Source of the DNA: a bacterium | GTDB taxonomy: Bacteria; Joyebacterota; Joyebacteria; Joyebacterales; Joyebacteraceae | Assembly (NCBI GenBank): GCA_025782395.1 | Contig: JALGZD010000004.1 | Location: forward strand, 1-64,000 | Reading direction: 5' to 3' | Length of the DNA: 64,000 bases | Shown here: positions 36,191 through 61,471 of the stretch, in pieces | How positions within the stretch are numbered: the stretch's first letter is position 1 | Layout: each line of letters begins with the position of its first letter | The notes under the pieces: model-generated | The model's database searches: none | Told to the model about the DNA's origin: nothing | What the model saw: the letters and a program-made list of their open reading frames with translations, nothing else | Made by a program: the position numbers and the translations under genes

Positions 36191-36211
36191 GTACATTAGT
36201 TGAATATACCA

Positions 36212-36324
36212 TTCCTTCGGGGCGGGGCGAAATTCCCCACCGGCGGTGATAGCCCGCGAGCGGCACGTCCGCAGAGCCTGTGAAATCCAGGCGCCGACAG
36301 TGAGAGTCTGGACGGAAGAAGGAA
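36212..36324 (+). promoter_or_regulatory. FMN riboswitch (RFN element)
   Basis: The conserved RFN core is clear: GGGGCGGGGCGAAATTCCCC, then ACCGGCGGTGATAGCCCGCGAGC (split here as two parts of the consensus), GTGAAATCC and GCCGACAGTGAGAGTCTGGA. The closing P1 stem pairs TTCCTTC (36212-36218) with GAAGGAA (36318-36324). By family knowledge it senses flavin mononucleotide and lowers expression of the following rib genes. Confidence 0.97.
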
Positions 36325-36359
36325 CACGGTAACCGGTCCAGGTGCTGGTTCCGGCTATG

Positions 36360-38264: not shown

Positions 38265-39614
38265 ATGGACGCTTACCGAGCAGTCGAGAACGCACTGAAC
38301 GCCATCACAGACGGCAAGATGGTCCTGGTGGTCGATGATGAAACGCGCGAAAACGAGGGTGATCTCATCATGGCGGCCGAGAAGGTTACCCCGGCTGCAA
38401 TCAACTTCATCGCCCGGGAGGGGCGCGGCCTCATATGTGTGGCGATGACGGGGGAACGTCTTGACGAGCTGGATCTGCACCCGATGGTGGCAGACAACAC
38501 CTCGCGAATGAACACGGCCTTTGCGATATCGGTCGACGCTGTGGAAGGAACCACAACCGGCATATCTGCGCAGGATCGTTCATTGACCGTGCAGGCCCTG
38601 GTCGCGTCGGAAACACGATCGGTCGATCTCGCGCGGCCGGGTCATGTGTTTCCGCTTCGTGCTGCCGTCGGTGGTGTCCTCAGGCGTGCAGGTCACACGG
38701 AAGCTGCCGTCGATCTTGCCGGGCTCGCCGGCCTCAAGCCGGCCGGCCTCCTCTGTGAAGTCATGAGCGATGACGGCAGCATGGCGCGTCTTCCGGAGCT
38801 TCGGGAGATGTCAGAGCGCTTCGGCCTGATGCTGGTGAGCATAAAGGACCTCATCGGCTACCGACAGCGGACCGAGCGACTTGTGCGTCGCGTAGTGACG
38901 ACTACGCTTCCGACCCGCTACGGAGAATTCAAGCTGTGCTTGTATGAGAACGACATAGACGACCATGAGCATCTGGCTCTGGTGAAGGGGAGACCCGGAC
39001 CCGAGCAGGATGTTCTCGTCCGCGTTCACTCAGAGTGCCTGACCGGGGACGTCTTCGGCTCCAGGCGCTGCGACTGCGGAGACCAGCTCCACGCGGCACT
39101 CAAGATGATCGATGATGAAGGAGAAGGCGTCTTCCTCTACATGCGACAGGAAGGACGCGGCATAGGACTGAGCAACAAGCTCAGGGCTTACGAGTTGCAG
39201 GACAGGGGACGCGACACCGTCGAGGCGAACGAAGAACTGGGCTTTCCGGCCGATCTCAGAGACTATGGGATCGGCGCGCAGATCCTCGCTGACCTCGGGG
39301 TCGGACGGATCAGGCTGATTACCAACAACCCGAAGAAGATAGTGGGCCTCGAGGGTTACGGCTTGGAAATCATCGATCGTATCCCGATCGAGATCCCGCC
39401 GACGGAGTGCAATCGCCAGTACCTTGCGACCAAGCGCGACAAGCTCGGCCACTATCTCCAGGCAGACGTGTGTGCAGACGAGAGGACAGAGGGGGATTGT
39501 GGGGAGGGGATCGTCCGCCCTCCGGGCAGGTTCGCGCGCCCTCCGGGCAGGTTCGGCAGCCCTGCGGGCGGATTGACAGTTGCAAAGCACACCAAGGAGG
39601 AGACGGATGAGTAA
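38265..39614 (+). CDS. ribBA: 3,4-dihydroxy-2-butanone-4-phosphate synthase / GTP cyclohydrolase II
   Basis: Bifunctional enzyme supplying both precursors of riboflavin; 449 residues from ATG 38265, which follows GGAG at 38251. RibB half: [18 protein letters not shown] and [17 protein letters not shown]. RibA half: [20 protein letters not shown] with the zinc cysteines, [13 protein letters not shown] and [15 protein letters not shown]. The last 35 or so residues are an extra tail with the heptad [21 protein letters not shown], encoded by 21-bp near-repeats. The stop overlaps the ribH start. Confidence 0.93.
39516..39576 (+). repeat. 21-bp tandem repeats in the ribBA 3' end
   Basis: CGCCCTCCGGGCAGGTTCG occurs at 39516-39534 and again at 39537-39555 (period 21), then a diverged third copy to about 39576. 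Each unit contains a GCCC/GGGC palindrome. They encode three heptapeptides beyond the conserved RibA domain. Confidence 0.85.
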
Positions 39615-41241: not shown

Positions 41242-42126
41242 ATGATCACCGTGAGCATCGGCATCATGGCCTACAACGAGGAGCGCAACATTCGGCGCCT
41301 CCTGGAGGCCCTTGCAGCCCAGAGGCTCGTGAAGGTCGACATCCGCCGGATCATCGTTGTTTCGAGCGGATCGACCGATCGCACCGACGAACTCGTGACT
41401 AAATGGGCGGAGCGCGATCCTCGCGTCGAACTTGTGGTGCAACCCGAGCGGAGAGGAAAATCTTCAGCTATCAACCTTTTTCTGGAGAGGGCCGACGCCG
41501 ACGTGTTCGTACTCGAAAGCGGTGACACGATTCCCGCCGCGGACTGCATCGAGCGGATGGTCGTCCCCTTCGAAAACCCGGAGGTCGGCATGGCCGGAGG
41601 GCGTCCGACCCCTGTCGACGATCCTGAGACCTTCATGGGGTTCGTCGTGCACATGCTCTGGCGCCTTCATCACAAGCTGGCGCTCAAATCGCCGAAGCTG
41701 GGCGAGATCATCGCGTTCAGGTCTTTCGTCGAGCAGATCCCGCCCGAGAGCGCGGTTGACGAAGCCAGTATTGAAGCGATCGTGACGGATCGCGGCCTCC
41801 GGCTCGTCTATGTGCCTGAGGCTATCGTCTACAACAAGGGCGCATCGACGGTCAGCGACTTCCTGAAGCAGCGGCGACGGATCTACGCCGGCCATCTCTG
41901 GCTCGAGCGGGAGCACTCATACAGCGTGTCGACGAAGAGCATCGGGGGAATATTCGGCGTCCTGCTCGACGACCTTGAGTGGCGCCCAAGGGTAGTCGCG
42001 TGGACGATCGGCGGCATATGGCTGGAGTTCGTTGGCCGGATGCTTGGGGTAATCGACTACCGGATTCTCAAGAAGAACCCGTATACCTGGGAAGTCGCCG
42101 AGTCGACCAAGAACCTGAGAGCGTAA
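41242..42126 (+). CDS. Family 2 glycosyltransferase, first gene of glycan block
   Basis: GT-A-type transferase, 294 residues. The N-terminus VSIGIMAYNEERNIRRLLEAL and VVSSGSTDRTDEL are typical GT2 nucleotide-sugar-binding motifs. The acceptor-side metal motif expected as DxD reads LESGDTIP (about residue 92), a non-canonical form. The C-terminal QRRRIYAGHLWLER resembles the QxxRW-like region of processive GT2 enzymes. A weakly hydrophobic tail may bind the membrane. Only 4 bases separate it from the radical-SAM gene, suggesting a joint function. Confidence 0.82.
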   Translation: MITVSIGIMAYNEERNIRRLLEALAAQRLVKVDIRRIIVVSSGSTDRTDELVTKWAERDPRVELVVQPERRGKSSAINLFLERADADVFVLESGDTIPAADCIERMVVPFENPEVGMAGGRPTPVDDPETFMGFVVHMLWRLHHKLALKSPKLGEIIAFRSFVEQIPPESAVDEASIEAIVTDRGLRLVYVPEAIVYNKGASTVSDFLKQRRRIYAGHLWLEREHSYSVSTKSIGGIFGVLLDDLEWRPRVVAWTIGGIWLEFVGRMLGVIDYRILKKNPYTWEVAESTKNLRA

Positions 42127-42130
42127 TCAG

Positions 42131-43246
42131 ATGCTGAAGCTCCTGACATCGATACCGCTCTATCACTCTATGAGGCGCACCGGGTGGCCCCGGCTGCTGC
42201 CACTGAATGTCACTGTCAGCGTTACCTACCGCTGCAACTCACGGTGCCTCACGTGCAATGTCTACAATCGGAAGGCGGACGAGTTCACGGTGGAGGAGTT
42301 CGACAGAACGTTCGCCTCGATGGGAAAGACTCCTTACTGGTTCACAATGAGCGGCGGTGAGCCGTTCCTGCGCAGGGATCTGGTCGACATCTGCGAAAGC
42401 GCCTGGCGACGCACCCGACCAGCCATAATCAACATTCCGACCAACGGGATACTTACGGACCGTATCCCGACCATGGTGGAAGAGATAGCAGCACGCTGCC
42501 CGGGAACCGAAGTGATAATCAACCTCTCTCTTGATGATATCGGGCAGCACCACGATCTGATCCGGGGCGTCCCCGGGAATTTCGAGAAGGCGATCGGCAC
42601 ATACAACGGACTCAGGAACCTCAAGGCCGACAACCTCACACTTGGCATACACACCGTTATCTCAGTGCACAACGTTGAGCGTCTCCCCAAGATCTATGAA
42701 TACGTCACAAGGGAGCTCGCCCCCGACTCATTCATAACGGAGATAGCGGAGGAACGGGTTGAGCTTGACACTGTTGGAAGCAAGGTAACACCCGCCCCGG
42801 CTGATTACGCAGCGGCAGTGGATTTTCTGACGGCGAGGCTTCACGAGCAGCGGTTCCGTGGAATCTCACGCGTCACGCAGTCGTTTCGTGCGCGCTACTA
42901 CGGGCTCGTGAAGCGCTTTCTCAATGAGCATCGGCAGATCATCCCGTGCTACGCGGGCTTTGCATCGGGACAGATTGCGCCGGACGGCGATGTCTGGTTC
43001 TGCTGCATTGAGGCGAGATCCGTCGGGAATCTGCGCGACTCGGACTACGATTTCCCCTCTATCTGGTTCGGTGAGAGAGCGCAGGCGCTGAGAAATCGAG
43101 TGCGGACGGGAGCCTGTTCCTGCCCGTTGGCGAATGCGGGATACACCAACATGCTGATGCACGTTCCGACGCTTGCCGCCGTGGGGTGGGAGATCGTGAC
43201 GCGACAACCGCCCGGTGGGAAGCAACAGGCGAATGTGGAGGATTGA
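42131..43246 (+). CDS. Radical SAM protein with SPASM-like cysteine-rich C-terminus
   Basis: SAM-cleaving iron-sulfur enzyme, 371 residues. The radical SAM cluster motif is C-x3-C-x2-C in YRCNSRCLTCNVY (about residues 36-44), followed by TMSGGEPFLRRDLVDI, the GGEP motif. The C-terminal part has CYAGF, WFCCIEARSVGNL and a final CSCPLA, which resembles auxiliary-cluster (SPASM or twitch) binding. Relatives modify peptides, sugars or lipids; the substrate here is unknown. It overlaps the DUF362-like gene by one base. Confidence 0.85.
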   Translation: MLKLLTSIPLYHSMRRTGWPRLLPLNVTVSVTYRCNSRCLTCNVYNRKADEFTVEEFDRTFASMGKTPYWFTMSGGEPFLRRDLVDICESAWRRTRPAIINIPTNGILTDRIPTMVEEIAARCPGTEVIINLSLDDIGQHHDLIRGVPGNFEKAIGTYNGLRNLKADNLTLGIHTVISVHNVERLPKIYEYVTRELAPDSFITEIAEERVELDTVGSKVTPAPADYAAAVDFLTARLHEQRFRGISRVTQSFRARYYGLVKRFLNEHRQIIPCYAGFASGQIAPDGDVWFCCIEARSVGNLRDSDYDFPSIWFGERAQALRNRVRTGACSCPLANAGYTNMLMHVPTLAAVGWEIVTRQPPGGKQQANVED

Positions 43247-44385
43247 TGGCGGTCTTTCTTGAGGAGATCCGGAAGTACCGGACTTCGCGCATTGTTGCCG
43301 CTCTTGAGCGGGCGACCGATTCGCTCAACCTGGATTTCTCGCAGAAGCGGAGCGCTCTCATCAAGCCGAACCTTGTGACCGGGAAGCGCCCCAGATCGGC
43401 GGTCGTGACACACCCTTGTGTTACCGAGGCGGTGGTCGTGTTTCTGAGAGAGCGCGGCGTCACTGAGATAACGATAGCGGATGGACCGGGGATCGGTCTC
43501 GACTCCGACTGGGTCTTTGAGAAATCAGGCTACACGGCGCTTGCCCGGAAGCTCGATGTGCCTCTCGTAAGCTTCAACGACCTGCCAAGAAGGACGAGGA
43601 CCTGGAAATACGGAGAGATAGGCGTTCCCGAGCTTCTGGAAGATGTCGATCTCTACGTGAATGTCCCAAAGCTCAAGACACACGGCTACTCAACGATGAC
43701 GCTCTCAATCAAGAACCACAAGGGCATGCTCTCGCAGGAGGACAAGAAACTGGATCACCAACTGGGCCTGCACGAGCCGCTTGTCGAGCAGGCGAAGCTG
43801 AGACCTGCAGACCTTATTGTGCTGGACGGAATAGTCGGTCTTGAGGGCGACGGGCCTTTGAATGGCAGACCCGTGCGGTCCGGGATCTTCGCCGTGTCCA
43901 CCAACATGCTCGAACTGGACGCTGCGGCTGCCGGATTGGCAGGCATCGATCCTCGCGAGATAGCGCATCTCAGAATCGCCGAAGAGCAAGGCCTTGGGAC
44001 GCTCAGTCCCGAGATCATCGGGAGCGCACCGAGACACTCGTTTATGCGCGCCAATGAGAAATTCGGCCGCGTCGCAAGGATCTACTCGTGGCGCGATCCG
44101 ACGGCTTGCTCCATGTGCATAGATGCGTTCAGTGGGGCGGTTTCGCTCGCGGTGAAGGACCCGCGCAACTGGTTTACATTGGCACCGAAACTACTTTACT
44201 GGGGGCTGATCGGGAGACTCCACATTCTCCAGGGAAGGCACGCAAAGCTTCCTCAGGCCAAGGGGAAGGTCATCTGCTTCGGGAAGTGCACGCGTGACAT
44301 GGCGAAGAGAGAGGGCCTGGTTCACGTGCCCGGCTGCCCTCCGACAGTGCACGATGTCGTCAAGACGCTCAGGAGGGAACTCTAG
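43246..44385 (+). CDS. DUF362-like protein with cysteine-rich C-terminus
   Basis: 379 residues from ATG 43246, which overlaps the radical-SAM stop (TGATG). The N-terminal core, with IKPNLVTGKRPRSAVVTHP, ITIADGPGIG and VNVPKLKTHGYSTMTLSIKN (in part), matches the DUF362 family, whose role is not established. The C-terminus has PTACSMCIDAF, CFGKCTRD and VPGCPPT, cysteine patterns that might bind an iron-sulfur cluster. A hydrophobic stretch near LLYWGLIGRLHIL is short. Tight coupling to a radical-SAM protein suggests a shared redox function (inference). Confidence 0.8.
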   Translation: MAVFLEEIRKYRTSRIVAALERATDSLNLDFSQKRSALIKPNLVTGKRPRSAVVTHPCVTEAVVVFLRERGVTEITIADGPGIGLDSDWVFEKSGYTALARKLDVPLVSFNDLPRRTRTWKYGEIGVPELLEDVDLYVNVPKLKTHGYSTMTLSIKNHKGMLSQEDKKLDHQLGLHEPLVEQAKLRPADLIVLDGIVGLEGDGPLNGRPVRSGIFAVSTNMLELDAAAAGLAGIDPREIAHLRIAEEQGLGTLSPEIIGSAPRHSFMRANEKFGRVARIYSWRDPTACSMCIDAFSGAVSLAVKDPRNWFTLAPKLLYWGLIGRLHILQGRHAKLPQAKGKVICFGKCTRDMAKREGLVHVPGCPPTVHDVVKTLRREL

Positions 44386-44388
44386 GAA

Positions 44389-45231
44389 ATGCCGGCCATC
44401 GACAGAGACACAGGACTCGGTACGACGTATGAGCGTCTGGCAGTCGCCATGATGCTGGAACGATTCGCTGACCGCTATCAGGTGCGGTCGGTCCTTGAAG
44501 GACCAAATGACGGGATAACCGGGATTCGAGGTCTGAACAGCATCCCGCTTGCCCAGGTGGGAGCCTCGGTCGAGCTCCTGCTCGGCGATCCCGATGAGGT
44601 GACGCTCGCTGAGAAGATCTGGGACGGCCTGGAACTCACTGACCGCGTGAAGATCCGGCACGCGCCGGACGGCAGACTCGCGGTAGCGCCCAAATCGTTC
44701 GACCTCGTGTGGAGCTTCAACGCCATACCGCAGGCGCGAGAGCCTGAGCGTCTCATCGCGGAAATGTGCGGCGCGAGCAGGCGCTTTGTGATGATCTTCG
44801 TTTCGAACACCCTGAACTACGGGTTCGCCATCCATCGGCTGCATCACGTTGCAGCCGGGGAACCGTGGAGTCACGGTGACATAGGCGCAATGAACACCAG
44901 GATGATAGCTGATCGTCTCGGCGAGCAGGGCTTCAGAGTGATCGAGAGGCTCGTCGTGGATACTCCCTGGTGGCCCGACATAGACTCTCCGATCGAGGAG
45001 GTAGCGGCCACTTTCCTTCCGTTCCTGAAACGCTTTCTCAGCGCGTCGAAGCGTCTGGATCATTACACCTGGACAGGCGAGAGCTTGCCGTACTTCCAGC
45101 CGGACAGACGAGCTGAACTGCTGCGCGAGATAGGAAAGCACTTCGCGATCGAACGGGCCCGCTTTTTCCCGCTTCGCATCCTCTTCGCGCACCATCGCGG
45201 CATCATCGCTGAGCGAAAGGATGGTTCTTGA
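44389..45231 (+). CDS. SAM-dependent methyltransferase-like protein
   Basis: 280 residues. It shows a class I methyltransferase-like layout: SVLEGPNDGITGIRGLNSIP as a glycine-containing first loop, VELLLGDPDE as strand two, and FDLVWSFNAIPQA as the post-motif II segment. The canonical GxGxG is not clean, so activity is uncertain. Start ATG is 3 bases after the DUF362-like gene, and the stop overlaps the next start (TTGA). Its substrate is unknown; context suggests a lipid- or sugar-linked metabolite. Confidence 0.65.
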   Translation: MPAIDRDTGLGTTYERLAVAMMLERFADRYQVRSVLEGPNDGITGIRGLNSIPLAQVGASVELLLGDPDEVTLAEKIWDGLELTDRVKIRHAPDGRLAVAPKSFDLVWSFNAIPQAREPERLIAEMCGASRRFVMIFVSNTLNYGFAIHRLHHVAAGEPWSHGDIGAMNTRMIADRLGEQGFRVIERLVVDTPWWPDIDSPIEEVAATFLPFLKRFLSASKRLDHYTWTGESLPYFQPDRRAELLREIGKHFAIERARFFPLRILFAHHRGIIAERKDGS

Positions 45232-46232
45232 ACAACCGCGCCAAGATAGCGCTGGCGCTCCTGGCTGGAGTGCTGCTTCTTTTTCTCGCTCTCAGAGGCG
45301 TTGATCTCGATCACGTGCGCGCAATCATGGGCCAAGCAAGCCCGCCCGTCCTCGTGATCGCGCTTGCTGTCTACCTGAGCGCGTACTTCGTCAGAAGTCT
45401 CAGATGGCGGCTGATCCTCAAACCGATTCAGCCGGTCTCCGTATCCGAATCGTTCTTCATGCTGATGGCGGGCTACTTCCTGAACTACATCGTCCCCATA
45501 CGCGCGGGCGAGGTTGCAAAGTCCTTTTTTCTCAAGCGACTCAAGGGACTCCCGATAGCCGTGAGTTTGCCCACGGTCTTTCTCGATAAGCTCCTGGAGC
45601 TTTTCTCTGTGCTGCTTGTGATCGTCCTGGTACCGGTTCTATCGGTGCGCCTGTCGGGATCGCTATCGTCGCTTCTAATCGGCGTAGTAACGGTCTTCGT
45701 GATCGCCGTCGGTCTTCTCACTCTCGCTGTGAGAAACGGCGACGCGACGGCGCACGTCGTCACCCGGCTGTTCTCATGGCTCCCTGAGAGACTGCACGAT
45801 CGCTTGTCTTCCTGGATCAGCCTCTTTGTTGACGGACTGAGTGTGGCGAGAACAAACGCGCGCAACGTCTGGTCGCTTCTGGCTCTCACGGGTGCGGCCG
45901 TTACGCTGGACGCAGTCTACTTCTCGCTCATGTTTCGGGCCTTCTCGATCGATGTCGCTTTCCCGACGGTGCTTTTCGGGTATACTCTCATATCGCTCTC
46001 GTACATTTTCCCGACACCACCGGCGCAGATAGGCTACAACGAGGCGATCATGGGGCTCATATTTGCAGGTGGTCTGGGTATGGCGCGCGCCGAGGTCACG
46101 GCTGTGATGCTGGTGGCACACGTTCTGACAGGTCTGCTTGTGACGGGTGTCGGTCTTGGGTCGTTCGCGGCGATGAGCATCAAGGTAACGGAGAGCTTCC
46201 GGCGGATCGGAAAGAACCCGGAAGAGAGGTAG
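45228..46232 (+). CDS. Lysylphosphatidylglycerol synthase TM-region (UPF0104) membrane protein
   Basis: Polytopic membrane protein of 334 residues with about eight hydrophobic segments. SAYFVRSLRWRLILKPI and the NYIVPIRAGEVAKSFFLKR segment are the typical signature of the MprF flippase-like domain family, without a synthase domain. Many glycan clusters carry such a protein; the transported lipid is unknown. The start is TTG 45228 inside the preceding stop. Confidence 0.85.
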   Translation: MNNRAKIALALLAGVLLLFLALRGVDLDHVRAIMGQASPPVLVIALAVYLSAYFVRSLRWRLILKPIQPVSVSESFFMLMAGYFLNYIVPIRAGEVAKSFFLKRLKGLPIAVSLPTVFLDKLLELFSVLLVIVLVPVLSVRLSGSLSSLLIGVVTVFVIAVGLLTLAVRNGDATAHVVTRLFSWLPERLHDRLSSWISLFVDGLSVARTNARNVWSLLALTGAAVTLDAVYFSLMFRAFSIDVAFPTVLFGYTLISLSYIFPTPPAQIGYNEAIMGLIFAGGLGMARAEVTAVMLVAHVLTGLLVTGVGLGSFAAMSIKVTESFRRIGKNPEER

Positions 46233-46238
46233 AAAAAA

Positions 46239-47177
46239 GTGGCTAACTATCTCGTGACCGGCGTGGCCGGTTTCATCGGATCGCATGTCGCCGAGCGTCT
46301 GATAAAGCGCGGCAACTCGGTCCGGGGGGTTGACTGCTTCACGAACTACTACGCCCGGTCTCTCAAGGAGAAGAATCTCTCCGAGCTCCTGGAGAGCCCT
46401 CGTTTTGTGTTGGATGAGCTCGATCTGTCGTCGGCCGATCTCGGCTCTGTGCTCGAGGAGGTAGATGCGGTCTGCCATCTTGCGGCTCAGGCAGGCGTGA
46501 GGGCGAGCTGGGGGAGGAGTTTCGAGACCTACATCGACTGCAACATCGCGGCTACGCAGCGCCTTCTGGAGGCCTGCAAGGGGAGATCTCTTGCGCGCTT
46601 CGTCTATGCCTCTTCTTCGTCGGTCTACGGTGAGACCGACGATCTCCCCATGCGCGAGCGAGGCGCAACGTGTCCGGTGTCGCCGTACGGCGTCACGAAG
46701 CTGGCCGCGGAACACCTCGCAGTGCTGTATCACAGGAACTACGGTCTACCCACCGTGTCGCTCAGGTTCTTCACGGTGTATGGTCCCAGACAGCGACCGG
46801 ATATGGCCTTCAACAAGTTCATCTCGGCGACGCTCTCCGGTCGCCCCGTCGAGATATACGGAGACGGGAAGCAGACACGTGATTTCACGTTCGTAGATGA
46901 CATAGTCGACGGGGTAGTGCGTGCGCTGGAGAACGGACCTCCAGGTGAGGTTTTCAATCTGGGTGGCGGGAGCCGCGTAACCCTGAATGAGGCTATCGAC
47001 ACGCTGGAGCGCGTGATGGGGATGAAAATCAATCGGCAGTACGAAACCCCGCAGAAGGGCGACGTCAGTAACACGCTTGCAGACAACAGCAAGGCACAAA
47101 ACGAGCTGGGATTCGCCCCCTCGGTTGGGCTGGAGGAGGGGCTGGCTCGCGAATTCGAGTGGCTGAAATCCCTCTAG
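46239..47177 (+). CDS. NAD-dependent sugar epimerase (UDP-glucose/glucuronate 4-epimerase-like)
   Basis: Extended short-chain dehydrogenase, 312 residues. NAD site VTGVAGFIGSHVAERL, the catalytic YASSSSVYGE and SPYGVTKLAAE (YxxxK), and FTVYGPRQRPDMAF with RDFTFVDDIVDGV are typical of UDP-hexose and UDP-glucuronate 4-epimerases. The exact sugar cannot be assigned by eye. The start is GTG 46239 after an A-rich AGAGGT leader. It presumably supplies an activated sugar to the glycosyltransferases that follow. Confidence 0.88.
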   Translation: MANYLVTGVAGFIGSHVAERLIKRGNSVRGVDCFTNYYARSLKEKNLSELLESPRFVLDELDLSSADLGSVLEEVDAVCHLAAQAGVRASWGRSFETYIDCNIAATQRLLEACKGRSLARFVYASSSSVYGETDDLPMRERGATCPVSPYGVTKLAAEHLAVLYHRNYGLPTVSLRFFTVYGPRQRPDMAFNKFISATLSGRPVEIYGDGKQTRDFTFVDDIVDGVVRALENGPPGEVFNLGGGSRVTLNEAIDTLERVMGMKINRQYETPQKGDVSNTLADNSKAQNELGFAPSVGLEEGLAREFEWLKSL

Positions 47178-49490: not shown

Positions 49491-50399
49491 ATGAGCAAAC
49501 CGTCCGTCTATGCCGTTGTCATCAACTGGAACGGCCTGGGCGTCATCGGTGACTGCCTGCGGTCGCTGGAGAGATCCGACTACGAGGACCTTACAACGCT
49601 GGTCGTAGACAACGCATCGACGGACGGATCACCTGATCTCATCAGGAAGTCGTTTCGAAGCGTTCGGCTCGTGGAAACCGGCGAGAATCTGAGGTACGCA
49701 GGCGGCGCCAATACCGGATTAAGGCTGGCCCTTGAGAGCGGGGCGGACTACGTGCTTCTCCTGAACAACGACATCGAGATTGCCCCGGATGCCATCTCAG
49801 AGCTGATCCGTGTTGCCGCGAATCGTCGCGACGCTGCTCTGCTTGGCCCCAAGATCTACTACCACGAGCCGCGGGATCTCATCTGGTCGATGGGCGGCAG
49901 CGTATCCTTCTGGAGCGGCAAGATCTCTCACCTCGGGTTGAGGAGTCGAGACGTGGGACAGTACGAACGAGTGACCGATGTCGACTACCTCACAGGATGC
50001 GCACTGTTCGTGCCCGTGGCAACACTCAGATCTGTAGGGTATCTTGATGAGAGCTACCATATGTACAATGAGGACACGGACTGGTGCGCCAGGGCCGGGA
50101 GACTCGGCCTCAAGTGTGTCGTCGTACCTTCCGCTCATCTCTGGCACAAGGTCTCCACGAGTTCCGGTGGAGGGCTGACACCATACAAGGTGTATCATCG
50201 TATCAGGAGCACTATGGCGTTCTTCAGGCGCTACGCGCGCCCGTATCACTGGTTCGGGATCATCCCGGCCACCGCGGTGAGAACGCTGGGCTTCGCGCTG
50301 AAGGGACTCGTGACGGGGAAACGGGAGAACGTCTCCGCCGCCGTGCGAGGTGCGCTGGACGCTGCTGGGAAGAAGGGGAGGACAGAGAGATATGGCTAG
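49491..50399 (+). CDS. Family 2 glycosyltransferase (rhamnosyltransferase-like)
   Basis: 302 residues from ATG 49491 (AGGAAG upstream). AVVINWNGLGVIGDCLRSLE, VVDNASTDGSPDLI and LLLNNDIEIAPDA are the marks of WcaA/rhamnosyltransferase-type GT2 enzymes, and YHMYNEDTDWCARAGRLGL is the acceptor-side ED-D-WC motif. The C-terminal basic helices are probably membrane-proximal. With rmlA and rmlD 36 kb upstream it could use dTDP-rhamnose, but this is inference. It overlaps the next gene by 8 bases. Confidence 0.87.
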   Translation: MSKPSVYAVVINWNGLGVIGDCLRSLERSDYEDLTTLVVDNASTDGSPDLIRKSFRSVRLVETGENLRYAGGANTGLRLALESGADYVLLLNNDIEIAPDAISELIRVAANRRDAALLGPKIYYHEPRDLIWSMGGSVSFWSGKISHLGLRSRDVGQYERVTDVDYLTGCALFVPVATLRSVGYLDESYHMYNEDTDWCARAGRLGLKCVVVPSAHLWHKVSTSSGGGLTPYKVYHRIRSTMAFFRRYARPYHWFGIIPATAVRTLGFALKGLVTGKRENVSAAVRGALDAAGKKGRTERYG

Positions 50400-51840
50400 A
50401 CGGTTCCTCCCTGCAGCCGGGGGTTCGACAAGAGGGAGCATACGTGTCACGCGCGGATGCGGCTCCCCTGCGCTCTGTGTCGCGGCTATGCTTGTTGTCA
50501 TCACGACGCTCCTTGTCGGCATACTTGCAGGGTGCTCGAGTCCCGGGCGCGACACGAGCGTGTCCCCCACGAGACTCATCATCTTCGGAATCGATGCCGC
50601 CAACTGGAACGTGCTCACCCCGATGCTCGAGGCGGGGGAGCTACCCAACATCGCAAGCCTGTTGCGTCGGGGGTCCTACGGCGTGCTGAAAAGCGGTGTG
50701 CCGATCCAGTCTCCTCAGATGTGGACGAGCATCGCAACGGGCGTCGTCCCCGAACGGCACGGCATCACGCGGTTTGTCGCGGAGCTGCCCGGGGGAACCA
50801 AGGAAGTCCCGGTAACGAACAACATGCGGCGGGTCAAGGCGTTCTGGAATATCCTTTCCGAGAGGAAGATCTCTGTCGGCATCGTGGGATGGTGGCCGAG
50901 CTGGCCGGTCGATGAGGTCGAGGGATTCATGATCGCCCAGAGAGCGTGGCCGGTGAACTGGAGCTTGCACGGCATTCCGTTCGGCGCAGCACGTGACCGC
51001 GAGGGACGACTTGTCACGGACGATTTCCCCGGGCGAACCTGGCCGGAGTCGCTCTACGAAGAGTTCGAGACTTTCGTCGTGACTGAGGAGGATGTAACGA
51101 CGCGGGAACTCGACCAGTTCTTCGCGGATTCCCGTTTCACTGATCCTGCCAGACAGTTCCATGCGCGCTGGGTCTATGCCAAGGACAAGACGTTCGCTGA
51201 TGCGGGGTTACATTTTCTCGTGAAGGAACGGCCGGACGTCTTTGCCGTATACCTGCAGGGAACGGACGTCGTCTCCCACTACTACTGGGGCTACCAGGAG
51301 GATGAGGGATTCGCGGTCAGACCGGATGACGCTCGCACGTACGGACGCGTAGTGAAAAACTATTACGCTTTCATCGACAGAGCGATAGGACGCTACCTGG
51401 AGGTCGTCGATGACAGGACGGCCATCCTGATAATCTCCGACCACGGCTTTGAAACGAAACCTGACCTCAAGCTCCGCTGGGAACGCGGAGAGAGGATTCG
51501 CACAGAGGAGGGTGGGAAGGACGTCCCCTGGGACCACGGAATCGACGGAGTCATCATCTTTGCCGGTCCCGGAGTGAAGGCCGAACACCGCATTGTGGGG
51601 AAGCCGTCGGTTGTCGATGTGACGCCGACCGTTCTTGCATATCTCGGGCTCCCGGCGGCTGAGGACATGGACGGACGACCTCTGACCGAGTGCTTCGAAG
51701 AGAGCTTTCTCAGTGAACACCCGATTGTGTGGATTCCTACATACGAGACCGGGGAAGCGCTGGGAAGTGAGTTCCCGATCGAGTCACCGATCGATGAGGG
51801 CATCCGGGAAAAGTTGAGGTCGCTCGGCTACATCGAGTAG
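50392..51840 (+). CDS. Alkaline-phosphatase-superfamily lipoprotein (phosphodiesterase type)
   Basis: 482 residues from ATG 50392. A long N-terminal signal ends in the lipobox LAGC (Cys about residue 57). The type I phosphodiesterase/nucleotide pyrophosphatase fold is indicated by IIFGIDAANWNVLTPMLE, the nucleophile region SPQMWTSIATGVVPERHGIT, ISDHGFETKP and PWDHGIDGVIIF. Substrates in the family include nucleotides, phospholipids and phospho-glycans. It ends in LRSLGYIE, exactly like the second copy at 52977, so the two are paralogues. Confidence 0.85.
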   Translation: MARRFLPAAGGSTRGSIRVTRGCGSPALCVAAMLVVITTLLVGILAGCSSPGRDTSVSPTRLIIFGIDAANWNVLTPMLEAGELPNIASLLRRGSYGVLKSGVPIQSPQMWTSIATGVVPERHGITRFVAELPGGTKEVPVTNNMRRVKAFWNILSERKISVGIVGWWPSWPVDEVEGFMIAQRAWPVNWSLHGIPFGAARDREGRLVTDDFPGRTWPESLYEEFETFVVTEEDVTTRELDQFFADSRFTDPARQFHARWVYAKDKTFADAGLHFLVKERPDVFAVYLQGTDVVSHYYWGYQEDEGFAVRPDDARTYGRVVKNYYAFIDRAIGRYLEVVDDRTAILIISDHGFETKPDLKLRWERGERIRTEEGGKDVPWDHGIDGVIIFAGPGVKAEHRIVGKPSVVDVTPTVLAYLGLPAAEDMDGRPLTECFEESFLSEHPIVWIPTYETGEALGSEFPIESPIDEGIREKLRSLGYIE

Positions 51841-51862: not shown

Positions 51863-52972
51863 ATGGCAGATACCGTGCGATTCGATTGCAGGTTCTATCT
51901 GGGGGACCGCCCCTGTCGCTGGGGCGGGGAGTGCGATGGGTGTACTTACTATCAGCCCATGGGAACGAGGTTCCTGATCATCAAGCTCGCCGCAGCTGGG
52001 GACGTTCTGCGCACCACGTCGATCCTGGAGCCGCTGAAACGGAAATACCCTGAATCACATGTCACCTGGGTGACAGACGCGAACGCCCTGCCGCTCATTG
52101 CCTTGAATCCATACATCGACCGCGCTGTGCCTCTTGGGTTTGAGGCCGCGCTGACTCTCCTGGCTCAACGCTTCGACGTGGTCATCTGCCTCGACAAGGA
52201 GCCTCGCGCGGGCGCTCTCATGAATCTCATCAAGGCCGATCGCAAGCTGGGTTTCGGACTCTCGGAATGGGGGACGATCGAGCCCGTGAGCGCGGGAGCC
52301 CAGTACGATTTCCAGCTTGGACTATCGGACGACAGAAAATTCAACGAGAACAGGAAAGGCTACCCCGAGATCTTCTGCCAGATCGCCGACGTCGACTACG
52401 CCGGCGAGCCGTACGTGCTCGTGCTTCCCGATCAATCCATCGAATACGCGAACAGATTCGTCCGCGAGCTTGGTCCTGAGACGCCTCTCGTCGGTCTCAA
52501 TGTAGGAGCAGGCCGTGTGTTCGCAAACAAGGCGTGGACGCCGTCCGGCTACGCGGCTCTTGCGGTCCGGATCAGCGATGATCTCGGAGGAACAGCTCTG
52601 CTCCTCGGCGGTGCTGATGAGCAGAGGAGTATCGCGGATATCGTTTCGCTCTCCAAAGGAGCGGCGATCGCCGGGGGACAGCACACGCTTCTGGACTTCG
52701 CAGCGATCGTAGGCAAGCTGGACGCTCTCGTCACCGGCGATACGATGGCCCTGCATCTCGCTGTGGCGCTGCGGGTCCCGGTCGTGGCACTCTTTGGTCC
52801 AACCGCTTGTCAGGAGATAGAGCTGTTTGGTCTTGGCTCCAAAGTAACTACGACGGTCGACTGTGCGCCGTGCTATCGCAGATCGTGTGATCTGAGTCCC
52901 TCATGCATGGACGCCATCGGGGTAGATGATGTCTTCACGGCGTTGGTCAAGACGTTGGAATCCAGGGACTAG
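51863..52972 (+). CDS. Family 9 glycosyltransferase (heptosyltransferase-like) with N-terminal Cys cluster
   Basis: 369 residues. The GT9 core starts with RFLIIKLAAAGDVLRTTSIL and contains VGLNVGAGRVFANKAW, GDTMALHLAVALRVPVVALF (in part) and FGPTA, typical of LPS heptosyltransferases. Before it is a cysteine-rich lead-in, FDCRFYLGDRPCRWGGECDGC, here about residues 6-26 and containing 4 Cys; a second group (CAPCYRRSCDLSPSC) lies near the C-terminus. A metal-binding role is possible. With gmhA present, a heptose donor is plausible. Confidence 0.85.
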   Translation: MADTVRFDCRFYLGDRPCRWGGECDGCTYYQPMGTRFLIIKLAAAGDVLRTTSILEPLKRKYPESHVTWVTDANALPLIALNPYIDRAVPLGFEAALTLLAQRFDVVICLDKEPRAGALMNLIKADRKLGFGLSEWGTIEPVSAGAQYDFQLGLSDDRKFNENRKGYPEIFCQIADVDYAGEPYVLVLPDQSIEYANRFVRELGPETPLVGLNVGAGRVFANKAWTPSGYAALAVRISDDLGGTALLLGGADEQRSIADIVSLSKGAAIAGGQHTLLDFAAIVGKLDALVTGDTMALHLAVALRVPVVALFGPTACQEIELFGLGSKVTTTVDCAPCYRRSCDLSPSCMDAIGVDDVFTALVKTLESRD

Positions 52973-52976
52973 CGAG

Positions 52977-54761
52977 ATGAGACACAAGAAGCAGACAGAA
53001 ACGGGAACGAGGTCGATCCTGCTCCGCGTTCCCCTCTTCGCACTGGGTTTCGCCATTGCTATCGGGGCGTACCTGGGAGCGTTCGGGGTGCAAACGAGCG
53101 GCTTCACCATGGCCCTTGCTACAATACAGATCATCCGCATCCTCTGTGGGTGCGTGCTCTGTTATCTTCTGCTCGGGCTACTTGCGGTCTTGCCCATGCT
53201 GTTCGGCGCCGCAAGAAAGACCGACATCTCCCGCGCTGAGAGACGTATGGTCTTCGCCATGACGACGGTGACGGTCTGGGTGTTTTCCACGCTCGCCTTC
53301 CTGCCTGTGAAGGGTTCCGAGACATTCGTTCGCGCGGGCACGCTGACCACCTTCCAGCTTAACATGATCGGGGTGGCTGTCGTGCTCGTGGGAGGCCTTC
53401 TGCTCGGCTGGGTGACCGCGCTCATCGGTGTGCAGCTTCTCGCGCTGTTGAGAAACACTCTTACGAAGAGGGGGATGCACACCGTCGGAATCACCGCTCT
53501 TCTTATCGCCGTGCTCATACTGGCGATGGGGCCATCGCTGCGGTCAGGCGCGCGTCCACGGTTCTCGCTGCCTGCGGGGACAACACCCACCGGGATGCCG
53601 CGCGTTGTGGTGATCGGCGTGGACGGGTGTGACTGGGAGATGCTGGGCCCTCTGGTTGAGGCCGGCGAACTTCCGAACTTCGAGAGGCTGATGGAGCGTG
53701 GTTGGCACGGTCCTCTGCTTAGTTCGGAACCGATGATATCGCCCAGAATATGGACTACGATAGCGACGGGGAAGGTGCCGGACAAGCACGGGATTCTCGG
53801 TTTCGTCGACCTGAACGGCGTTCCCGTGAATGCGGCAATGAGAAGCGCACCGGCCATATGGGAGATAGTCTCGGGCTATGGTGGGATCGTAGGTGTGATC
53901 GGGTGGTACGTGACGTGGCCGGCTGACGATGTCAACGGCTTCATGATTTCGGATCGCGTCCACTCACTCATGAGAGGCCCTTTGCAGATCCTGCACACTA
54001 TTGAAGGACAACCGACAAACGAACGACTTCGCTCGTTCGGCTCGTTTGCGTTCGATGCAGGCTACAAGCGTCTTGATACAGGCAACAAGCGATACCAGCA
54101 GAACAGAATAGTCGACGAGCCGTTGAGATGGGGGTACCTGAGGGATGAGATCTATGCCGGCATGGCCGACGTCTTCATCCCGCGGTACGACCCAAACTTC
54201 TCAGCCATCTATCTCAGAGGCATCGATTTCGTACAGCATTTCTTCTGGCAGTACTCGGATCCGGAGCCGTTCGGGTCTGTGACACCGGAAGACATCAGGG
54301 CCTACGGAGATGTTATCCCAAACTACTACAGATACACAGACCGTTTGTTGGGCAGGTTGCTCGAATCCGTGGGAGACGACACGAATGTGCTTCTGGTCTC
54401 CGACCACGGCTTCCAGCCTCGCCTGGAACTCAACCCGAGCATGCCCCAGCTCACGGGCATGCATCACGAGCACGGTGTCATCATAGGCGCCGGCCCCGCC
54501 TTCCAGCGGCTCGGCCGATTCGACGACGCCACGATCCTCGATGTCGCTCCAACCTGTCTCGCGGTGCTGGGGCTGGCGGTACCGGATGACATGGACGGTC
54601 GCATTCTCCTTGAGACGATCCGCCCGAGCCATTTTGAGCGGTATCCTCTGAACTCAGTAGCAAGCTACGACTCGGCCATCGCCAGAGAGAGCGAGGAACT
54701 CGGTTCGACCATGGACGAATCGATCAAGGAACAGCTCAGATCCCTTGGCTACATCGAGTAG
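52977..54761 (+). CDS. Membrane-anchored alkaline-phosphatase-superfamily protein
   Basis: 594 residues from ATG 52977. The first 200 residues hold about five membrane helices (LLRVPLFALGFAIAIGAYLG, ILCGCVLCYLLLGLLAVLP and others). The periplasmic domain then parallels the 50392 gene: VVVIGVDGCDWEMLGPLVE, SPRIWTTIATGKVPDKHGI, VSDHGFQPRLELNP, MHHEHGVIIGAGP and the identical end LRSLGYIE. Topology (membrane domain plus phosphatase-like domain) recalls phosphoethanolamine or glycerol-phosphate transferases, but the motifs fit phosphodiesterases better. Substrate unknown. Confidence 0.85.
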   Translation: MRHKKQTETGTRSILLRVPLFALGFAIAIGAYLGAFGVQTSGFTMALATIQIIRILCGCVLCYLLLGLLAVLPMLFGAARKTDISRAERRMVFAMTTVTVWVFSTLAFLPVKGSETFVRAGTLTTFQLNMIGVAVVLVGGLLLGWVTALIGVQLLALLRNTLTKRGMHTVGITALLIAVLILAMGPSLRSGARPRFSLPAGTTPTGMPRVVVIGVDGCDWEMLGPLVEAGELPNFERLMERGWHGPLLSSEPMISPRIWTTIATGKVPDKHGILGFVDLNGVPVNAAMRSAPAIWEIVSGYGGIVGVIGWYVTWPADDVNGFMISDRVHSLMRGPLQILHTIEGQPTNERLRSFGSFAFDAGYKRLDTGNKRYQQNRIVDEPLRWGYLRDEIYAGMADVFIPRYDPNFSAIYLRGIDFVQHFFWQYSDPEPFGSVTPEDIRAYGDVIPNYYRYTDRLLGRLLESVGDDTNVLLVSDHGFQPRLELNPSMPQLTGMHHEHGVIIGAGPAFQRLGRFDDATILDVAPTCLAVLGLAVPDDMDGRILLETIRPSHFERYPLNSVASYDSAIARESEELGSTMDESIKEQLRSLGYIE

Positions 54762-58604: not shown

Positions 58605-59318
58605 ATGAAGCTCATGGTCATCGTTCCGACCTACAACGAGCGGGAGAACCTGGCCAATCTGGCGCCACTGGTGCTGTCTCAATTGCCGGATGTTCAGCTT
58701 CTTGTGGTGGACGACGGATCGCCTGACGGAACCGGCGAGCTGGCTGACAGGCTGGCGGCTGAAGATGACCGTGTGCATGTCATACACCGCCCGACGAAGA
58801 TGGGACTTGGATCCGCGTACGTCCAGGGCTTCCACTACGCTCTGGGCACCGACGCGGACCTCATCGTCCAGATGGACGCCGATTTCTCTCACGAGCCGGC
58901 CGTGATCCCCGATCTTGTGCGACAGGCCGAGAACTATGACGTGGTTCTGGGATCCCGCTATATCACGGGTGCCAATGTCGTGAACTGGCCTCTCAGGCGT
59001 CTTTTCCTAAGCTACTTCGCGAATGTCTACACGCACATCATCACGGGACTTCCAGTGAGGGATTCTACCGGCGGTTTCAAGTGCTTCAGAAGGAACGTGC
59101 TGGCAAGCATCGATCTCGATGCCATCAGATCGGACGGTTACTCGTTCCAGATTGAAGTGAACTTCCGGTGCTGGAGAAAGGGCTTCTCCATCTACGAGAT
59201 CCCGATCGTCTTTGTGGACCGACACGCGGGAACGTCCAAGATGTCCAGACGGATCGTGTGGGAAGCAATGTGGCTCGTATGGCGTCTGCGGCTTGACCGG
59301 ATACTGAGGAGAATGTGA
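58605..59318 (+). CDS. Polyprenol-monophosphomannose synthase-like GT2
   Basis: 237 residues without membrane anchor. MKLMVIVPTYNERENLANLA, LLVVDDGSPDGTGELADRLA and IVQMDADFSHEPAVIPDLV are the family DPM1/Ppm1 motifs; GSRYITGANVVNWPLRRLFL follows. It transfers mannose, or another sugar, from GDP-sugar to a polyprenyl phosphate. ATG 58605 begins the base after the YfhO-like stop, so the two are a coupled donor-and-transferase pair. GTGA overlap joins it to the next gene. Confidence 0.9.
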   Translation: MKLMVIVPTYNERENLANLAPLVLSQLPDVQLLVVDDGSPDGTGELADRLAAEDDRVHVIHRPTKMGLGSAYVQGFHYALGTDADLIVQMDADFSHEPAVIPDLVRQAENYDVVLGSRYITGANVVNWPLRRLFLSYFANVYTHIITGLPVRDSTGGFKCFRRNVLASIDLDAIRSDGYSFQIEVNFRCWRKGFSIYEIPIVFVDRHAGTSKMSRRIVWEAMWLVWRLRLDRILRRM

Positions 59319-61471
59319 GCTCTCGCGGAGGATCTTTCGACCTCTCGATCGTGATCGTCGGCTACAATAGCCGTCCTGACCTCGATGGTTGTCTTCGGGC
59401 AATAGAGGCATCGCTCGATGCGGTCACCAGCGAGACGATTGTGATCGACAACGCGTCGTCAGACGGGACCGTGAGCCTGGTCAAGCGGGAGTTCAAATGG
59501 GTCAGGCTATTTGAGAACTCCAGCAATGTGGGATTGGCGAGGGCCGTTAACAGGGGCATCAGAGAGGCAAAGGGGCACTACGTCCTTGTCCTGAACCCGG
59601 ATATCCAGATCCGGAGCGGTTCGCTCGACGCTCTGGTCGCGTTCATGGACAGTCACAGCGACGTCGGGATGGCGGGGGCGAAGCTCCTCAACACGGATGG
59701 GAGCCTTCAGTACTCGTGTCGCGCATTCTACACGTTCTGGACTCTCGTTCTGAGAAGGACCTTTCTCGGAACACTGTTCAAGCATAGCCGGACAATCCAA
59801 CGGCATCTGATGCTCGACTACGACCACGAAACACCGCGCGAAGTAGACTGGATACTGGGCGCATGCATGCTGACGCGGCGCGATGCTCTGGCTGATGTAG
59901 GTCCGATGGACGAGCGCTTCTTTCTCTACTTCGAGGACGTGGACTGGTGCTACAGGATGTGGCGCGGCGGATGGAAGGTCTGCTACGTTCCGGCATCGGT
60001 CATGACGCACCGCCATGCAAGAGAGAGCGCTGGATCAGGTATCAGCCGGCAACTTGTGTCCCATCTGCTCTCGCTCGCACACTTCTATGAGAAGTGGGGA
60101 GGGTTCATCTACGCTTTGAAGAGACACAGACGAATCCTCAGGACGTCACTCCTTCTGATCTCAGATGTGGTGGCCATCAACGCGGGCTTTGCGTTTGCGT
60201 ACCTGCTTCGCTCCAGCCTACGCGGTCTCCTGGCCAAACCTCTTTTCGGCGTGGAGATCTATGGGGCTTTCCTGGTCTTTTCGAACATCATGTTCCTGGT
60301 CACGTTTGCCTTCTTTGGGCTCTATCATGGCAGACAGGAGCGCGAACCCTGGGCCGACACATTCCTGCGGCTGACTCGGGCGTCAGCAGTGGCCGCCATC
60401 ATCCTGATGGCCAGCACGTTCCTTGCCTCCACAATTGTCTATTCGCGCCTGCTCGTCGGAGCGTTCAGCCTGCTCGTGGTCATTCTGGCGTCGATCCAGC
60501 GAGGGGGACTCAGACTGCTCCACAACCAGATCAGGGCGGGAAGCTTCGATCTGGCGCGAGTCGCCGTCGTTGGAACCGGAAGAACGGCAGTCCGTCTTGC
60601 GGAACGGATTGCATCCCGTCCGGCTCTTGGTTACGATCTCGTAGGACTCGTGGACCCCGGACTGGGCAAGCGTGAGCCATCAGCGATCCCCGTTATCGGT
60701 ATGCTCGAGAACCTCATCGACCTTGTCGATGCCCAGAGGCTGGAGGAAATCATATTCGCCGATCCCGAGCTGCCGAACTCGGAGATTTCGGACTTTCTGC
60801 TGCGGGCCAGACGGAGTACGGTAGATGTGAGGTTGGTCTCGGGGCTGACGGGAATCATGACGCAGCGGGCGCGGGTTGAGGAGTTCCTCGACACGCCCGT
60901 CGTGACGTTTGAGCGGGAGGCCCTCCTGGGTACGAAGGGAGGGGTGAAGCGCGCTCTGGACATCGGGGGCGCGGCCGTTCTGCTGACGTTATGGTCGCCG
61001 ATACTGGCGGTGTCTGCTCTCGTATCAAAAGCGACGCGGGGGCGCGGGCCGATCACGCGCAGCGTGCGTGCGGGCCGGAACCAGGTGGAATACCAGATGC
61101 TCACGCTTCATCCCGAGGACGCAGAGTCCGCCCTCAGACGCTTCATCGTGCGGCACGGTCTGAACGGGTTCCCGGCACTTGTGAACGTCCTCCGGGGCGA
61201 CATGAGTCTCGTGGGGCCCGAACCTCTTGTGCCTGCGGTAGCCGACAGGTGCGACACAAGGTCGCGCGTCAGGTTCGACGCAAGACCCGGGATCGTTGGG
61301 CTCGCTCGGATTGCCGGAAGTGGAACGTATTCTGGTGATGACGCCGCAACACGTGATGACAGCGCAACGGCTCTGGATGCCTACTACGTTCAGAACTGGT
61401 CACTCGGAAGTGATCTGCGGATCGTGCTGCGCTGGCTTCTCCGCTGTGCCGGGGGACGCTCAGGATATTGA
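59315..61471 (+). CDS. GT2 fused to WbaP-like phosphoglycosyltransferase with degenerate motifs
   Basis: 718 residues combining a GT2 transferase (1 to about 250: LSIVIVGYNSRPDLDGCL, VIDNASSDGT, EDVDWCYRMWRGGW), four membrane segments (about 270-385), a Rossmann domain (VAVVGTGRTAVRLAERI) and a polyprenyl glycosylphosphotransferase domain (about 550-718, GDMSLVGPEPLVP and DAYYVQNWSLGSDLRI). Key PGT signatures are eroded: KFRSM reads as MLTLH and SLDELPQL as GLNGFPAL, so initiating activity is doubtful. Fusion of a rhamnosyl-type GT2 to a PGT is unusual. Start GTG 59315 overlaps the preceding stop. Confidence 0.82.
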   Translation: MSSRGGSFDLSIVIVGYNSRPDLDGCLRAIEASLDAVTSETIVIDNASSDGTVSLVKREFKWVRLFENSSNVGLARAVNRGIREAKGHYVLVLNPDIQIRSGSLDALVAFMDSHSDVGMAGAKLLNTDGSLQYSCRAFYTFWTLVLRRTFLGTLFKHSRTIQRHLMLDYDHETPREVDWILGACMLTRRDALADVGPMDERFFLYFEDVDWCYRMWRGGWKVCYVPASVMTHRHARESAGSGISRQLVSHLLSLAHFYEKWGGFIYALKRHRRILRTSLLLISDVVAINAGFAFAYLLRSSLRGLLAKPLFGVEIYGAFLVFSNIMFLVTFAFFGLYHGRQEREPWADTFLRLTRASAVAAIILMASTFLASTIVYSRLLVGAFSLLVVILASIQRGGLRLLHNQIRAGSFDLARVAVVGTGRTAVRLAERIASRPALGYDLVGLVDPGLGKREPSAIPVIGMLENLIDLVDAQRLEEIIFADPELPNSEISDFLLRARRSTVDVRLVSGLTGIMTQRARVEEFLDTPVVTFEREALLGTKGGVKRALDIGGAAVLLTLWSPILAVSALVSKATRGRGPITRSVRAGRNQVEYQMLTLHPEDAESALRRFIVRHGLNGFPALVNVLRGDMSLVGPEPLVPAVADRCDTRSRVRFDARPGIVGLARIAGSGTYSGDDAATRDDSATALDAYYVQNWSLGSDLRIVLRWLLRCAGGRSGY

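Follow-up and report, generated by a model that had tools for sequence, protein, structure and literature searches.

A glycosyltransferase and radical SAM gene pair with recurrent partners as a candidate module for modifying a lipid-linked saccharide

We describe five adjoining genes, here called A to E, in a window of 64,000 nucleotides (the whole stretch of DNA analysed; contig JALGZD010000004.1 of assembly GCA_025782395.1), which encode a family 2 glycosyltransferase (GT2), a radical S-adenosylmethionine (SAM) protein, a DUF362 protein, a methyltransferase-like protein and a flippase-like membrane protein. The A-B unit is conserved in about ten phyla of bacteria and archaea, and by the measures of neighbourhood conservation and co-occurrence the linkage exceeds chance. 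Based on computed gene linkage, co-occurrence, domain identities, conserved cysteines and folds, our working hypothesis, to which we assign a probability of roughly 0.45, is that A-E belong to a conserved module, with A and B as its core, in which a saccharide made by the GT2, and probably linked to a lipid, is modified by radical chemistry. The five genes are as follows:

41242..42126 (+), gene A, GT2, 294 aa; PF00535, 1.6e-25
42131..43246 (+), gene B, radical SAM protein with a twitch/SPASM-like C-terminal domain, 371 aa; PF04055, 9.9e-12, and PF13186 (SPASM), 8.2e-8
43246..44385 (+), gene C, DUF362 protein, 379 aa; PF04015, 5.5e-45
44389..45231 (+), gene D, protein with a class I SAM-methyltransferase fold, family unnamed, 280 aa; AlphaFold2 (AF2) and Foldseek
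45228..46232 (+), gene E, flippase-like/LPG_synthase_TM membrane protein, 334 aa; PF03706, 8.8e-42, and TIGR00374 above cut-off

Linkage of A and B and their recurrent partners

The five genes lie head to tail on the + strand with successive gaps of +4, -1, +3 and -4 bases, as the first-pass annotation of the window had stated in describing gaps or overlaps of at most 4 bases. C likely starts at the ATG at 43246, which is preceded by GGAGG, rather than at the GTG upstream at 43186. The same annotation took the spacing to indicate one transcript and one pathway. Spacing is no proof of either, because the rib/nusB genes upstream and genes F and G downstream run on with similar gaps; the part of this claim that stands does so on the non-random linkage seen in neighbourhood and co-occurrence.

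Across the genomes of the Eisenbacteria family, the order A-B-C-D-E is constant wherever contigs permit, the rib/nusB genes and F-K included. To look more widely, 80 named B-bearing loci were fetched and two more added, giving 82 loci; A (E <= 1e-50) was present in 63 of these, in all 63 on the same strand as B, and within 500 nt of B in 59 and within 60 nt in 45. Because these loci had been chosen by B, we also made an unselected co-occurrence test. Among 366 genomes outside the family, 13 have A, 13 have B (>290 bits) and 12 have both (p = 1.7e-20); collapsed to families, which corrects for kinship only in part, the overlap is 8/9 (p = 2.4e-13). The 290-bit cut-off for B was set post hoc, after the scores had been inspected, and with a looser cut-off (E <= 1e-70, 19 genomes) the overlap with A is still 12/13 (p = 6e-17). 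A-B was found in Eisenbacteria, Chloroflexota, Cloacimonadota, Armatimonadota, Nitrospirota, Omnitrophota, Firestonebacteria, Actinomycetota and Methanoperedens. A conserved neighbourhood, which had been named beforehand as the check to make, is therefore borne out, with a fixed order in relatives and co-occurrence of A and B across phyla. We note that one locus titled Armatimonadota (L152) groups within Cloacimonadota and shares the nusB-A-B order, and probably comes from a mis-assigned metagenome-assembled genome (MAG).

The natural core of the module is the A+B pair, and C, D, a sugar epimerase and DPM-like GT2s are its recurrent partners. In the window, the last two are encoded directly downstream of E:

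46239..47177 (+), gene F, NAD-dependent sugar epimerase/dehydratase; PF01370/PF16363
47181..48161 (+), gene G, polyprenyl-phosphate (DPM/ArnC-like) GT2; NF007986, 186.7 bits, below the equivalog cut-off

C (E <= 1e-40) occurs in six of the 366 genomes outside the family, five of which also have B (E <= 1e-70; p = 1.3e-6), and F shares a gene cluster with B in 25 of about 77 loci. In the archaeon Methanoperedens, A-B is followed by C (42%) and D (28%) on the opposite strand, and in Methanomassiliicoccales C (40%) stands beside B. The order is GT9-A-B-D-second radical SAM/SPASM-C-B12-type radical SAM-DPM-like GT2 in genome G148, and A-B-D-D-C followed by two B12-binding-type radical SAM genes (one Pfam-checked) in G104 and L127, while in G373 C adjoins D. 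Genes of this B12-binding type adjoin the cassette in L066, L127, L141 and L226. In L226, a gene between D and C was tried as a second D and rejected, being a second radical SAM/SPASM protein. Chloroflexota and Acidimicrobiia have A-B together with epimerases, D or flippase-like genes, and a DPM-like GT2, an epimerase, GT9 and YfhO were found repeatedly beside A or B, the DPM-like GT2s in other phyla too. On a tree of the 80 B proteins, in which several deep forks are weak, the label "C-adjacent" takes five changes as compared to 17.3 in shuffles, from which we conclude that C was gained or lost several times.

Domains and folds of the encoded proteins

B carries the CxxxCxxC motif and scores over the PF04055 cut-off, and so belongs to the radical SAM superfamily. 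Its conserved cysteines lie in two regions:

42233..42256 (+), CxxxCxxC radical-SAM cluster motif of B (C35, C39, C42), invariant in 80/80 sequences
42947..43123 (+), auxiliary-cluster cysteines of B, C273-x18-C292-x36-C329-x-C331, invariant in 80/80 sequences

SGGEP is likewise invariant in these 80 sequences, and C291 is present in 79/80. The extra C-terminal cysteines reported in the first-pass annotation are thus real (C273, C291, C292, C329 and C331), and its reading of B as a radical-SAM/SPASM protein holds for the superfamily and for the PF13186 match over cut-off. A full SPASM domain was rejected, the seven-cysteine motif being absent and just C273, C291/C292, C329 and C331 being present. 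The seven-cysteine SPASM motif corresponds to two auxiliary clusters, and twitch is a truncated SPASM with one (PMC6231123). Because the seven-cysteine motif is absent, a single twitch-type auxiliary cluster like that of BtrN or SkfB is expected, and the sequence of B suggests a radical SAM enzyme of the twitch type. The twitch enzyme BtrN acts as a dehydrogenase (PMC6231123); as far as can be told from PMC10991966 and the title of one of its references, the radical SAM enzyme NeoN epimerises a glycoside, and HygY is a twitch epimerase in which a dehydrogenase activity is latent. B resembles BtrN, HygY and SkfB in the CxxxCxxC motif and in four C-terminal cysteines that would fit a single auxiliary cluster and include a CxC pair like that of SkfB, but is a separate family, far under every NCBIfam cut-off shown. 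It also differs in that C123, a barrel cysteine and possible hydrogen donor, is present in only 59/80 sequences, a patchiness that would tip the balance slightly towards a dehydrogenase or rearrangement and away from an epimerase. The closest solved structure by sequence is SkfB (6efn, 1.4e-9, radical SAM domain only), and B also matches radical SAM families that act on peptides, that of mycofactocin among them, with scores all far below cut-offs. We found no known pathway that owns B, and the earlier statement that these genes are not a standard polysaccharide set is supported.

C is a DUF362 protein (154 bits against PF04015, cut-off 24) with a cysteine-rich tail (C288, C291, C348 and C364), both as first annotated. 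Two of its segments align with known protein families:

43681..43758 (+), H146-x9-K156-x14-H171 of C, aligned to LarA His174 (catalytic), Lys184 (cofactor link) and His200 (Ni ligand)
44107..44343 (+), C-terminal CxxC...GxC...GCPP domain of C, NuoB/[NiFe]-hydrogenase small-subunit type; hhalign

The AF2 model of C has a mean pLDDT of 91.9, and its best 11 Foldseek matches in the PDB are all of the LarA family (top 1.5e-7), although these are partial with a TM-score of ~0.4. K156 and H171 are invariant and H146 almost so in 23 sequences. The LarA profile aligned to C scores 35.0 compared to 16.0 +- 2.8 for shuffled columns, with a low hhalign probability of 23-28%; in this alignment His174 has an equivalent and no equivalent of the catalytic His108 was found, and LarA-type enzymes with a single catalytic histidine are also known. 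We take Lys184/His200 to be the LarA numbering, which agrees with Lys183/His199 in the Isosphaera enzyme. The roles of the LarA lysine and histidines and those of Lys183/His199 are described in PMC12611868, and DUF362 and DUF2088 are both in Pfam clan CL0471 (PMC11770544). C is thus like the LarA superfamily in fold, clan and aligned H-K-H residues, and unlike it in having, on this alignment, one of the two catalytic histidines, an extra Fe-S-type tail, and several hosts in which the cofactor genes are absent. Specifically, LarC was not found and LarE gave no hit above cut-off in six C-bearing genomes (the window genome, G005, G006, G008, G009 and G011), all at least 90% complete, so that MAG gaps are a possible but unlikely cause. 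Because LarC and LarE are missing there, C probably acts independently of the nickel-pincer nucleotide (NPN) in these hosts, and an NPN-dependent racemase was downgraded as a candidate for C. The same six genomes hold a LarA-family protein with the full H/K/H set (in the window genome, L188:856-2100, C218), likewise with no larC or larE found.

Searched as a whole against solved structures, the DUF362 profile gave weak matches only, with hydrogenase small subunits on top (E 0.25), and for this reason we examined the tail of C separately. Against PF01058 proteins it reached 96% in hhalign (E 4.7e-9) and a score of 55.4 compared to 22.2 +- 2.3 in motif-kept shuffles (maximum 28.9); sub-threshold PF01058 matches occur in 9 of 23 C members, C itself scoring 11.7 bits with a gathering cut-off of 27. 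As predicted from these alignments, the tail is a NuoB/[NiFe]-hydrogenase small-subunit [4Fe-4S]-type domain set on a LarA-like fold. It shares the CxxC...GxC...GCPP order and the beta-alpha-beta elements of the proximal [4Fe-4S] domain, and differs in being ~80 residues long, fused to DUF362 and below the Pfam cut-off, in a cassette without a hydrogenase or complex I partner.

D matched no Pfam or NCBIfam family. In its AF2 model (mean pLDDT 87.2), which matches AtmM (Foldseek, 5.8e-11) and many methyltransferases, D is a class I SAM-methyltransferase fold, in line with the methyltransferase-like label it had been given. Its motif I is VLEGPxDGITGI, unlike the classical GxGxG, and a 28-member alignment has invariant residues near both ends. 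A contains a conserved segment KQRRRIYxGH, in which Q210 and R211-R213 are invariant in 16 sequences across phyla, and which recalls the QxxRW motif of some membrane-associated GT2s; A also weakly matches MftF, far under cut-off.

A hypothetical pathway and its alternatives

In the proposed pathway, whose substrate, step order, acceptor lipid, reaction type and electron flow we infer, A would transfer a sugar to an acceptor that is most likely membrane-associated (polyprenyl or another lipid). B would then abstract a hydrogen from the resulting glycoside via 5'-deoxyadenosyl-radical chemistry, and its auxiliary cluster would help to oxidise or re-form the substrate radical, leading to dehydrogenation, epimerisation or ring rearrangement. 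D would methylate the product or an intermediate, C would perform or feed a second redox step (without the nickel-pincer nucleotide in the window genome), and F would supply or alter the sugar. In Eisenbacteria, E and the downstream genes for a DPM-like GT, a flippase, a YfhO-like protein and a phosphoglycosyltransferase may move the product and incorporate it into a surface glycan. There is precedent for such a scheme: HpnI (a glycosyltransferase), HpnK and HpnJ (a radical SAM enzyme) act in this order to make the bacteriohopanetetrol cyclitol ether (PMC12583986). As in the proposed module, a glycosyltransferase loads a sugar onto a lipid, a radical SAM enzyme remodels it and the genes are co-inherited. 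Unlike that system, the cassette has no recognised HpnK equivalent, is also found in archaea, and matches no HpnI/HpnJ model in the lists of families, 21 for A and the best 25 of 41 for B. The first-pass annotation had read the genes as a redox or radical modification of a lipid-linked sugar or other glycan precursor, and this reading is partly supported.

Several points weigh against this pathway. No transmembrane segment is predicted in A by hydropathy. C is found in 19 and D in 22 of about 77 B loci, many of them from one family, and E is weak evidence because glycan loci commonly contain membrane proteins of its type. Calditrichota-type genomes (G092, G233) hold A and B apart from one another, and some Ktedonobacteria copies of B (L108, L114, L116, L117) have no A nearby while other copies do. 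Finally, in Cloacimonadota the order is ribH-nusB-A-B, flanked by non-glycan genes and with C, D and E not nearby; because A-B there lies between nusB and genes unrelated to glycans, a local surface glycan is not a general explanation.

The Cloacimonadota arrangement, A-B without glycan genes, also fits an alternative that we regard as possible though unlikely, namely that the A-B core makes a membrane glycolipid head group (cyclitol-ether-like or calditol-like) and that the polysaccharide genes of Eisenbacteria are secondary. Consistent with this, B stands beside a geranylgeranyl-reductase-like flavoprotein gene, in the place of A, in the Calditrichota-type loci L067, L132, L146 and L237, B12-binding radical SAM genes lie beside the cassette in the four loci given above, and HpnI/HpnJ is the nearest functional analogue (PMC12583986). 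Yet the cassette is shared by bacteria and archaea despite their differing membrane lipids, its neighbours repeatedly include epimerases, DPM-like GT2s and GT9, and the absence of HpnI/HpnJ models from the lists of families given above counts here too. That the five genes are an accidental slice of a polysaccharide locus, without a common pathway, is distinctly improbable: rib/nusB upstream and about ten glycan genes downstream do have equally small gaps and E and F are commonplace in glycan loci, but the grouping recurs, by co-occurrence and repeated adjacency, across phyla, and for A+B the co-occurrence test refutes it.

The evidence on C bears on a further proposal, that C is a LarA-type NPN-dependent epimerase acting on a sugar acid of the pathway. 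All top Foldseek matches being LarA (1.5e-7 and weaker), the common clan of DUF362 and DUF2088 (PMC11770544), the alignment of the lysine that binds the cofactor, of the histidine that binds nickel and of one of the catalytic histidines, and the profile score above shuffles would all agree with it; we nevertheless consider it very unlikely given the results for LarC and LarE in the six C-bearing genomes, the missing His108 equivalent and the 23-28% profile probability. We give still less credence to B as a SPASM-class maturase of a ribosomally synthesized and post-translationally modified peptide that A glycosylates, as in mycofactocin. The resemblance to MftC/MftF lies in the pairing of a radical SAM/SPASM protein with a GT2 and in the matches of B to peptide radical SAM families and of A to MftF, whose scores are all far below cut-offs. 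By contrast, the intervals between A and E are too short for a precursor gene, of 333 small open reading frames lying no more than 3 kb from B in 28 loci, none has a counterpart in a different locus, and B lacks the full seven-cysteine motif. Because no precursor peptide was found near B, a peptide product is disfavoured.

Returning to the modification of a lipid-linked saccharide by A-E, a bolder extension is that DUF362 proteins of the C type are a new class of redox enzyme, in which an NPN-free LarA-like site is wired to its own NuoB-type [4Fe-4S] cluster and partners a radical SAM enzyme in remodelling a lipid-linked sugar for an unseen bacterial and archaeal membrane or surface glycoconjugate. 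We offer this as a speculation that is unlikely to be correct.

Genomic setting and wider meaning

The window genome (G000) comprises 2.9 Mb in 231 contigs, and the best named relatives of B (86-87% identity) are in Candidatus Eisenbacteria MAGs. The same-strand run that includes A-E is continuous from ribD to at least 61471, ~25 kb, with similarly small gaps throughout (6 bases from E to F and 3 from F to G), and the boundary of the cassette after E is arbitrary. Upstream of A the run holds ribD-ribE-ribBA-ribH-nusB-phosphoesterase, and downstream of E an epimerase, a DPM-like GT2, GT4, GT2, phosphodiesterases, GT9, a Wzx-like protein, YfhO, GT2 and a GT2-phosphoglycosyltransferase fusion. 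RibH is backed by Pfam; the names RibD, RibE, RibBA, NusB and FtsY are our assumed assignments from reading the sequences. A promoter consensus scan was uninformative (one match, two expected). Upstream of ribD lies an FMN riboswitch (RF00050, 107 bits, 36209-36327, +); because the ribD run extends into the cassette and Cloacimonadota share the order ribH-nusB-A-B, flavins could conceivably control A-B. An Rfam V_AS9 match antisense to ribBA (38365-38468, -) is probably a coding-sequence artefact. Two type I phosphodiesterase-superfamily proteins (50350-51840 and 52926-54761, both +) flank the GT9 gene, one of them lipoprotein-like and the other with N-terminal membrane segments, and at 59315-61471 (+) a GT2 domain and a CoA_binding_3/Bac_transf polyprenyl-phosphate sugar transferase are fused in a single protein.

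In the open-licence literature, no paper that we found joins DUF362 with radical SAM, and to the extent of this search both the combination of genes and the two-domain reading of C appear new. The transphylum gene module is thus one that the literature searched does not describe jointly. The pairing of A with B gives a radical SAM family of unassigned function a testable partner, and DUF362 gains a concrete structural hypothesis, in which a LarA-like fold would be joined to a hydrogenase-like Fe-S domain.

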